This document shows positions 12,159 through 42,697 of a stretch of DNA of 45,183 bases, piece after piece. Made by a program: the position numbers and the translations under genes. Source of the DNA: Candidatus Thalassarchaeum betae. GTDB taxonomy: Archaea; Thermoplasmatota; Poseidoniia; Poseidoniales; Thalassarchaeaceae. Below the pieces are notes generated by a model. That model had not been told where the DNA came from. It saw only the letters and a program-made list of their open reading frames with translations, and did not search any database. Numbering within the stretch: position 1 is the stretch's first letter; each line of letters starts with the position of its first letter. Location of the stretch: assembly GCA_022447095.1 (NCBI GenBank), contig JAKUUP010000011.1, forward strand, positions 1 through 45,183. Reading direction: 5' to 3'.

Positions 12159-12240
12159 GATGTCACGAGGCGGGTTCCCGGCTTGAAATCGCCGTAGCGA
12201 TGGTGTCTTCAAGGCCGCCTCGCAGGCGCTGGTGAGGCAC

Positions 12241-13191
12241 ATGGGGTACGCAGTTGAGTTCAGCGACGTGCAGGATGCTGCAGAGAGAGTCGCTGGTACC
12301 GTCAAGAGAACTGTCGTGGTGTCCTCGGAAGAACTCAACGATATCGCCGGCAGAGAGGTCCTACTGAAGTGCGAAAACCTGCAGCACGTTGGCGCCTTCA
12401 AGTTTCGCGGTGCGACCAACGCGGTGAGTATGCTCGATGAAGATGCAGAGATGGGAGTATGCACGCACAGTAGCGGCAACCACGCTCAGGCGCTTGCGCT
12501 CGCAGCGAAGCAGCGAGGCATCCCCGCCTACATCGTGATGCCGAATACCGCTCCCAAGGTCAAGGTGGCCGGCGTACAGAGCCATGACGCCGAGATAACC
12601 TTCTGCGAGCCTACACTGGAAGCTAGGGAGGCGACAGCTGCGAGCGTGATCGAGCGAACCGGTGCGACACTGGTTCACCCATACGACAACCCGAACGTCA
12701 TCGCAGGCCAGGGCACGGCTGCGATGGAACTCTTCGAACAGGCGGGCCCCATGGACGCGATGGTTGCTCCTGTAGGTGGTGGCGGGCTGATGTCGGGTAC
12801 TTGCATAACCACGCGGGCCCTGTTCCCCGAGACTAGGCTGTTCGGAGCCGAGCCGGAAGGAGCTGATGATGCGGCTCGTTCACTGGCCGCTGACGAATAC
12901 ATCCCTCAGACTGGTCCTGACACCATCTGCGACGGACTGCTGACCAGTTTGGGGCAATTGACTTGGCCCATATTGAGGGACCATCTCGAGGGCGTCATCA
13001 CAGTCAGCGACGAGGAGGTGATCGAGGCAATGCGGCTTCTGCTCAAACACCTCGGTATGGTGGTCGAGCCGAGCGGTGCGGCCTCACTCGCTGCGGTGCT
13101 GAGGCCTGAGTTCAGGGATCTGGAAGGTATCAGCAGAGTGGGGCTCATTCTTTCAGGAGGAAATGTCGACCCCGGATCGGTCTCCTTCTAG
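12241..13191 (+). CDS. PLP-dependent threonine dehydratase / serine racemase
   Basis: Fold-type II PLP enzyme. VGAFKFRGATNAV carries the Schiff-base Lys (K54), SSGNHAQALALAA at ~77-89 is the substrate loop, PVGGGGLMSG at ~177-186 binds the PLP phosphate, and LSGGNVD near the end contacts the ring nitrogen. At 316 aa it lacks the C-terminal ACT regulatory domain of biosynthetic IlvA, so it resembles catabolic threonine dehydratase or serine racemase; the two cannot be told apart here. The ATG at 12241 is preceded by GGTGAGG at a suitable distance. A GTG at 12232 is an alternative start. Confidence 0.88.
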   Translation: MGYAVEFSDVQDAAERVAGTVKRTVVVSSEELNDIAGREVLLKCENLQHVGAFKFRGATNAVSMLDEDAEMGVCTHSSGNHAQALALAAKQRGIPAYIVMPNTAPKVKVAGVQSHDAEITFCEPTLEAREATAASVIERTGATLVHPYDNPNVIAGQGTAAMELFEQAGPMDAMVAPVGGGGLMSGTCITTRALFPETRLFGAEPEGADDAARSLAADEYIPQTGPDTICDGLLTSLGQLTWPILRDHLEGVITVSDEEVIEAMRLLLKHLGMVVEPSGAASLAAVLRPEFRDLEGISRVGLILSGGNVDPGSVSF

Positions 13192-13212
13192 AGCGGTTGC
13201 TGAGACGGAAGA

Positions 13213-13286
13213 TGGAGCACGGGCCGGGATTTGCACCCGGGTCCATGGATCTGCAGTCCATTGCATAGCTGCTCTGCCACCCGTGC
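13213..13286 (-). tRNA. tRNA-Cys (GCA), CCA encoded
   Basis: Read on the minus strand. The acceptor stem GCACGGG/CCCGTGC is fully paired, followed by U73 and an encoded CCA. The anticodon stem ATGGA/TCCAT encloses loop CTGCAGA with anticodon GCA. The T-stem CCGGG/CCCGG is paired and the variable loop is GGAC. U73, anticodon GCA and the 13-22 mismatch are all usual for tRNA-Cys. The D-loop reads AGCAGCT and the T-loop TGCAAAT: relative to the normal G18-G19 and T54-U55-C56, position 18 is A and position 55 is G. No intron. It lies between the dehydratase and the aminotransferase, on the opposite strand to both. Confidence 0.93.
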
Positions 13287-13396
13287 AGCGACTCTCGACC
13301 CCCGAGGTCCCCTTGAAGACTCTTTGGAGAGTGGCGACGTCACTATCAGAAGACTTGGCGCATATGTTCATCTCCGGTCAGCCACCCGCCAGCGGC

Positions 13397-14530
13397 ATGC
13401 CTGAGATTTCCTCGCGCTACGACGGGCTTGGTGTGGGCTTCGCACCCTATCTGCAGCCCCCGGGACCAGAAGTAGTTCGCTGGACGGTGGGTGAGCCGGG
13501 CTTCGATGCACCGACTGAGGTCATCGAAGCGACGATCAAAGGACTCGAAGATGGTAACACAAAGTACACCCGCGGAGCCGGTTCGATGGAGTTGTGCCAA
13601 GCTGTTTCCGACTACCTAGCACGCCATCACGGAATAGATGTAGGCATGGATGATGTGGTCATCACGCCCGGTGCCAAGCAGGCGCTGCTGTACTCGTTCA
13701 TGATAGCAACCATGCCAGGCGACGAAGCCATCCTGTTGGCTCCATCGTGGGCCTCCTACGAGCCTATGCTCAGCCTGATAGGAGCGGTCCCCGTGAACGT
13801 CCCAGTGAGGAAGGACAACTTCCACCCCGACATCGATGCCATCGCGGCAGCGGTCACCGAAAGAACTCGGATGATACTAATCAACTCGCCATGCAACCCA
13901 ACGGGAGCCGTGTTCACGCCCGACGAGATGCAAGCGATAGTCGACATTGCCATCGAGCACGATCTCTGGATAGTCTCAGACGAAATTTACGCCAGATTGG
14001 TCTGGACGGACTATCCACATACCTCTCCCTCAACCCTCTCCGGTGGTAAGGAGCGTACACTAATCGTCAACGGCTGGTCGAAGTCCTGGGCGATGACGGG
14101 GATGAGGCTGGGCTTCCTCGCAGGACCCCCGGATGCGATGAGGGCGGCAGTGAAGACTCAGGCCAACTCAGCTTCGCACGTCCCTACTTTCATGATGCAC
14201 GCAGCTGCGGTGGCGCTTGACTGCGACGACTCTGTTGAGGAGTTCAACCGAGAGTACCTGAAACGACGCGATATCATGATTGGTGGACTCGAAGAAATGT
14301 CCGGTCTGAGGGTGATCGAGCCAGAAGGAGCATTCTACGTGTTCGTTGATGTCACCGGCACCGGGATGAGTGATATCGAGTTCGCCGACGGAGCCCTAGA
14401 GGCCGGAGTACAGTTGATTCCAACTTCACTCATCACCGGCGGCGAGGGTTTTGTCAGAATATCATACGCCACCGACGAGGAGGCAATTCACGAGGGATTG
14501 AGGCGCTTGCGGGCATGGCTTGTGGATTAG
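13397..14530 (+). CDS. Class I/II pyridoxal-phosphate aminotransferase
   Basis: Fold-type I aminotransferase of the aspartate/tyrosine aminotransferase family. It shows VGEPGFDAP near residue 31, YTRGAGSMELCQAV at ~57-70, NSPCNPTGAVF at ~163-173 (Asn to the PLP O3'), SDEIYARL at ~194-201 and the PLP lysine in NGWSKSWAMTGMRLGF (K229). RISYA near the end holds the Arg that binds the substrate carboxylate. The frame is open from 13163, but that part would run through tRNA-Cys. ATG at 13397 gives MPEISSRYDG, matching the usual N-terminus; ATG at 13364 is the alternative. The amino-acid specificity is not evident. Confidence 0.9.
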   Translation: MPEISSRYDGLGVGFAPYLQPPGPEVVRWTVGEPGFDAPTEVIEATIKGLEDGNTKYTRGAGSMELCQAVSDYLARHHGIDVGMDDVVITPGAKQALLYSFMIATMPGDEAILLAPSWASYEPMLSLIGAVPVNVPVRKDNFHPDIDAIAAAVTERTRMILINSPCNPTGAVFTPDEMQAIVDIAIEHDLWIVSDEIYARLVWTDYPHTSPSTLSGGKERTLIVNGWSKSWAMTGMRLGFLAGPPDAMRAAVKTQANSASHVPTFMMHAAAVALDCDDSVEEFNREYLKRRDIMIGGLEEMSGLRVIEPEGAFYVFVDVTGTGMSDIEFADGALEAGVQLIPTSLITGGEGFVRISYATDEEAIHEGLRRLRAWLVD

Positions 14531-42613: not shown

Positions 42614-42697
42614 GCAGAGGTGGCGGAGTGGTTAACGCGCTGGGCTGAGGGCCCAGTCCTTAGTGGATCGCAGGTTCGAATCCTGTCCTCTGCACCA
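42614..42697 (+). tRNA. tRNA-Leu (GAG), CCA encoded
   Basis: Acceptor stem GCAGAGG/CCTCTGC is fully paired, followed by A73 and encoded CCA. The anticodon stem CTGGG/CCCAG has loop CTGAGGG with anticodon GAG (CUC/CUU codons). There is a long type II variable arm (TCCTTAGTGGATCG), normal for Leu. The D-loop has the usual GG and the T-loop is TTCGAAT, unlike the tRNA-Cys of this window. No intron. Confidence 0.95.

Follow-up and report, generated by a model that had tools for sequence, protein, structure and literature searches.

Can a tRNA work with neither base of a near-universal elbow pair? The G18-Psi55 pair between the D- and T-loops is described as invariant (PMC6337575), and pseudouridine 55 (Psi55) as universally conserved (PMC4810234, PMC7912444). 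The question is raised by a tRNA-Cys(GCA) gene at 13213-13286 (minus strand) of contig JAKUUP010000011.1 from Candidatus Thalassarchaeum betae (assembly GCA_022447095.1, family Thalassarchaeaceae), which has A18 and G55 instead; "the window" below means the whole 45,183-nt stretch that was analysed. The answer proposed here, held with good confidence, is that the gene encodes the functional and only tRNA-Cys of its genome, that A18-G55 has replaced G18-Psi55 by covariation, and that G19-C56 and U54-A58 are retained within a composite GNRA elbow. It builds on the sequence, single copy, conservation and recurrence of the gene and on the covariation of positions 18/55 and 19/56.

Sequence and Fold of the tRNA-Cys Gene

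The 74-nt gene, with encoded CCA, is called by both ARAGORN and the Rfam model RF00005, and its isotype and anticodon (GCA, 13252-13254) are assigned by ARAGORN. On the minus strand it reads GCACGGG UG GCAG AGCAGCU AUGC A AUGGA CUGCAGA UCCAU GGAC CCGGG UGCAAAU CCCGG CCCGUGC U CCA. The D-loop (13267-13273) consists of A14, G15, C16, A18, G19, C20, and U21, with A18 at window base 13270, and the T-loop (13229-13235) of U54, G55, C56, A57, A58, A59, and U60, with G55 at window base 13234. The D-loop AGCAGCT and T-loop TGCAAAT, with A18/G55 in place of G18-U55, were the core of the original prediction, and the sequence, ARAGORN and Rfam bear them out. The D-loop register was set by alignment to canonical tRNA-Cys, with E. 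coli and M. jannaschii sequences as references, and it is further supported because positions 19 and 56 covary in viral tRNAs.

The remaining conserved features, namely G19-C56, U54-A58, U8-A14, G15-C48, U73, and CCA, are intact, and the acceptor and T stems have the ordinary 7/5 lengths. U73 and CCA had been predicted correctly; the accompanying statement of perfect pairing in all stems does not quite hold, as D-stem position 13-22 is G·A, the sole stem mismatch. A core of G9, G13·A22, and a pyrimidine at 21 is normal for bacterial-type tRNA-Cys (PMC7566577), and the gene, with G9, G13·A22, and U21, belongs to that type. The tRNA-Leu(gag) of the window (42614-42697) has normal D- and T-loops in ARAGORN and Rfam, as had been stated. 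Apart from the exchanged elbow pair the tRNA is ordinary, and what surprises is that the exchange recurs.

A Sole tRNA-Cys and Its Enzymes

The genome holding the window (1.35 Mb in 70 contigs, 98% complete) has 41 tRNAs in the RF00005 search and a single tRNA-Cys in the ARAGORN listing. A second, canonical tRNA-Cys, named in the original prediction as a possible refutation, was sought with both and not found in this 98%-complete genome. CysRS is encoded (397 bits), and since this is the only tRNA-Cys beside that enzyme, the tRNA should be essential to the cell. Its functionality, including expression and aminoacylation, is predicted from sequence and shares in the confidence given to the joint explanation above.

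Loss of the Psi55 enzyme was considered as a cause and rejected: Pus10, the archaeal Psi55/54 synthase, is encoded in the genome (398 bits) and in the genus, and the remaining tRNAs of the genome retain U55. As a separate observation, a tRNA-Arg(gcg) of low score, whose anticodon stem contains T·T mismatches, lies on a 4.8 kb contig (G000:C33:3385-3458, L041) and is possibly foreign.

Conservation in the Thalassarchaeaceae and the Order

The gene is identical in 5 further genomes of different species. The A18/G55 type is present in 12 of 13 members of the genus and in about 90 family genomes, across genera g1, g3, g5, g6, g7, g8, and g11. In the fetched family sequences A18 and G55 are constant and the stems vary on both sides, for example as U28-A42, C28-G42, and G28-C42. 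Canonical G18/U55 tRNA-Cys occurs in the family genera g4, g9, and g10 and in the other family of the order. The trait is not Thermoplasmatota-wide: among 390 evenly sampled genomes, G55 tRNA-Cys was confined to the family of the window, and the few other pattern matches are unlike tRNA-Cys T-arms.

A tree of the aminotransferase protein encoded beside the tRNA requires two state changes, one gain and one loss. The gain maps to the base of a clade of 71 rows (support 100/96) that contains every A18/G55 locus; the loss concerns two g5 genomes (G048 and G053) with canonical tRNA-Cys at the same locus. There (L149, L151) the body of the G18/U55 tRNA is similar to the one in the sister family, and A18/G55 seems to have been replaced or to have reverted. 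G024, also a family member with canonical tRNA-Cys, has a contamination estimate of 7%, and its tRNA-bearing contig groups with the other family and is probably contamination. A record titled Acidimicrobiaceae (L278, PATJ01000002.1) has the Thalassarchaeaceae tRNA-Cys/aminotransferase locus, falls inside that family in the tree and is probably mis-binned.

These data bear on the simplest rival, that two unrelated substitutions have struck a pseudogene, a decaying gene or a misassembled one. Both altered bases are normally near-invariant and the RF00005 score, 56.9 bits, is modest, as this rival would have it. Against it, A18/G55 is kept across the family and in independent assemblies together with compensatory stem changes, in a gene that is the only tRNA-Cys of its genome; broken stems, a spare copy and lack of conservation, the marks of a pseudogene, are all missing. 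Decay or error is therefore extremely improbable. The alignment with relatives, which the original prediction had offered as a way to overturn it, found A18/G55 to be common to them.

Recurrence in Other Cellular Lineages

A scan of GTDB representative genomes, set to find tRNA-Cys that combine G55 and a variable loop of 4 nt, returned 102 stretches. Outside the order, A18/G55 tRNA-Cys was found in metagenome-assembled genomes (MAGs) of Bdellovibrionales, in one Rickettsiales MAG and in one Odinarchaeia MAG, and also in two proteobacterial MAGs, RUG347 and UBA2810, whose tRNAs are near-identical. In the class of the Bdellovibrionales carriers, A18 accompanies G55 in 4/4 tRNA-Cys, and G18 is present in every listed tRNA-Cys with U55. 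Among the matches listed for the order of the Rickettsiales carrier, A18/G55 is restricted to that genome. In the Asgard phylum, to which the Odinarchaeia MAG belongs, G55 tRNA-Cys is frequent, and A18 is present in 15/15 fetched sequences with varying D-loop lengths. Four matches were discarded: L183 and L233 were rejected as tRNAs by ARAGORN, and L259 and L266 are not readable as tRNA-Cys.

Some of these cellular genes may have been acquired horizontally, from phages or between hosts, in which case hosts would outnumber independent origins. This rival concerns how the genes arose and leaves their function aside. The Odinarchaeia tRNA-Cys has the same D-arm pattern as the Thalassarchaeaceae gene, the locus is occupied in one genus by a canonical tRNA of a different type, and A18/G55 tRNAs are numerous in phages. 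On the other hand, the Bdellovibrionales and Rickettsiales carriers are otherwise like their own canonical relatives, and variable-loop lengths and acceptor stems differ among the groups. Transfer is judged a minority possibility.

Covariation of Positions 18-55 and 19-56

The distinct tRNA-Cys sequences gathered comprise 79 with G18/U55, 48 with A18/G55, 3 with G18/G55, and 0 with A18/U55. The searches behind these counts chose on base 55 or admitted both states, and a few required a purine at 18; as position 18 was limited at most to purine, they carry no bias to A over G.

Viral tRNAs extend the pattern beyond cysteine. In IMG/VR, seven contigs contain G55 tRNA-Cys, with A18 in all six that parsed, and five non-Cys G55 tRNAs in the same arrays all have A18. 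Three more viral scans, with selection on a G55 T-arm only, gave 330 loci and 866 distinct tRNAs, and counts were limited to tRNAs with U54, C56, and A58 intact and an unambiguous position 18. Unambiguous A18 loops go with G55 in 96 tRNAs and with U55 in 3, and G18 loops with G55 in 1 and with U55 in 556; 54 AGG loops are ambiguous at position 18. The viral G55 cases lie on 60 contigs and span 19 standard isotypes; L178 holds a Val case. Four viral G55 tRNAs have a base other than C at 56. In each, position 19 holds the matching Watson-Crick base and position 18 an A: two show C19-G56 (Gly, L731 and L605), one A19-U56 (Asp, L662), and one U19-A56 (Cys, L676). Exchanges at 19-56, such as A19-U56, occur likewise in many U55 viral tRNAs. 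As both position pairs covary in viral tRNAs, a register of 18-55 and 19-56 is supported. The original prediction of compensatory covariation, not decay, is upheld, with A18 and G55 co-occurring in archaea, bacteria, and phages and single-change states rare.

A different register would keep G19-C56 and add an antiparallel Watson-Crick pair between C20 and G55, leaving A18 with no partner. The window tRNA-Cys has the C20 that this needs. However, position 20 is C, U or A in A18/G55 tRNA-Cys and A18 is constant, and in viral tRNAs 18 covaries with 55 and 19 with 56. The C20-G55 register is accordingly very unlikely.

Several points weigh against the exchange reading. A Fisher test on the tRNA-Cys counts gives a nominal p of about 2e-32, and because relatives are not independent, such p-values overstate the association. 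Three viral A18/U55 loops were counted. G18/G55 tRNA-Cys was found in three GTDB MAGs (Synechococcaceae, Beijerinckiaceae, and Myxococcales), so G55 can occur without A18. Finally, the A18-G55 contact and its geometry, the absence of Psi55 in the cell and normal function in translation are inferred from sequence.

An alternative that profits from these points is that A18 and G55 are tolerated jointly without touching, in an elbow held by G19-C56 and stacking, through shared ancestry or relaxed constraint. It is consistent with the existence of G18/G55 tRNAs, with the derivation of most cellular sequences from one tRNA-Cys lineage and with the contact being a prediction. In contrast, the association is found in separate cellular lineages with G18/U55 relatives and in viral tRNAs of many isotypes, and relaxed constraint would yield many A18/U55 and G18/G55 loops. 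Joint tolerance without contact is therefore judged unlikely. Replacement of G18-Psi55 by a contacting A18-G55 pair remains the favoured explanation.

The scans also returned side observations. The Synechococcaceae MAG (G326; L188, L216) has two G18/G55 tRNA-Cys copies, one of them 4 kb from a canonical copy, and they are possibly spare or decaying. Thirteen viral C55 tRNAs all have a G18-type loop, apparently G18-C55. Viral loci with A19-U56, U19-A56, and C19-G56 exchanges include L499, L651, L663, L672, and L747. The T-loops ATCATAC, ATCGTAA, and ATCGTTA of L172 tRNA-Ala, L177 tRNA-Gly, and L379 tRNA-Ile look like A54-U58, possibly the closing pair U54-A58 reversed. In L176 (IMGVR_UViG_2619618912_000004, minus strand, 1974-2005), a Bdellovibrio-like G55 tRNA-Cys is represented by its 3' half, without a full tRNA call, as would be expected of the attachment site of an integrated element.

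Proposed Geometry of the Elbow

The same turn is common to GNRA tetraloops and UNR loops. In a normal T-loop, the UNR turn is formed by U55-C56-R57, with G18 inserted between 57 and 58. In the window tRNA-Cys, G55-C56-A57 would form a GNR turn equivalent to the UNR turn, and the inserted A18 would serve as the fourth residue of a GNRA fold by pairing with G55 (G55·A18, probably sheared). C56 would stay free to pair with G19, and the L-shape would be retained without Psi55.

Type R1 lonepair triloops have the consensus UGNRA, and their triloop G commonly makes contact with an A from outside the loop, which produces a composite GNRA tetraloop (PMC2258182). U54, G55, C56, A57, and A58 fit this consensus, closed by the U-A lone pair, and in the tRNA-Cys and viral counts A18 plays the part of the outside A, varying jointly with the G of the triloop. 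As tRNA residue 18 sits between 57 and 58 (PMC4810234) and so occupies the place of the last A of GNRA, G55-C56-A57 and A18 should form a GNRA-type fold.

The claim that this tRNA would not carry Psi55, made in the original prediction, follows from its sequence, since base 55 is G. The other elbow geometry suggested there is plausible in the form of the composite GNRA. The modification m1Psi54 (1-methylpseudouridine at 54) may be affected too, because the archaeal TrmY is reported to be intolerant of a U55 mutation in its T-arm substrate (PMC7912444).

Gene Neighbourhood

An aminotransferase class I/II gene, whose longest open reading frame spans 13163-14530 (plus strand), adjoins the tRNA-Cys in most loci of the order. 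The 5' part of this frame overlaps the tRNA-Cys antisense, and the true start therefore probably lies downstream. A gene for a PALP-family pyridoxal phosphate (PLP) enzyme at 12232-13191 (plus strand) adjoins the tRNA-Cys in the genus and in some other genera, and is given for context only.

Relation to Known tRNAs and Significance

The canonical elbow (G18-Psi55, G19-C56) shares with the window tRNA-Cys its cloverleaf, U54-A58, G19-C56, loop sizes and a residue 18 before G19, whereas 18-55 is here A-G and not G-U/Psi, without a target for Psi55 synthase. The UGNRA lonepair triloops (T-loop motifs) of rRNA and riboswitches (PMC2258182) also consist of a GNR triloop closed by a U-A lone pair, with an outside A available; here the motif would lie in a tRNA elbow, with C56 pairing to G19 as well. 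A natural double exchange of highly conserved tertiary pairs is likewise seen in eukaryotic tRNA-Ala, which has A54-A58 and R15-A48 (PMC7566577), at 54-58 and 15-48 and not at 18-55. tRNA-Pyl and the selC*/allo-tRNAs (PMC7609411) likewise depart in nature from the standard D/T-loop contact or core, although their stems or loop sizes are altered, and the window tRNA has 7/5 stems with one pair exchanged. The 8/4 or 9/3 acceptor-T domain of selC* tRNA-Cys and allo-tRNAs (PMC7609411) is absent from it. Text searches of the open-access literature, with subscription literature outside their scope, found no description of A18 with G55 in tRNA, and priority is not established.

On balance, A18-G55 appears to be a second recurrent elbow solution, in which an A from the D-loop would join the T-loop in a GNRA-type fold, with repeated origin in archaeal and bacterial tRNA-Cys and common use in phage tRNAs of nearly all isotypes with free 19-56 covariation; this wider claim is favoured somewhat less firmly than the exchange in the window gene. 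The ribosome, RNase P, T-boxes, and several modification enzymes all recognise the elbow. If the claim is true, A18/G55 tRNAs would be freed from Psi55 synthases, and perhaps from Gm18 (2'-O-methylguanosine 18) methylation and from host enzymes that recognise the elbow. A sole tRNA that is conserved without G18-Psi55, together with 18-55 covariation across domains and phages, would mean that there are at least two interchangeable elbow base-pair codes, and natural tRNAs such as that of the Thalassarchaeaceae, unable to be Psi55 substrates, would help in asking what purpose Psi55 serves.
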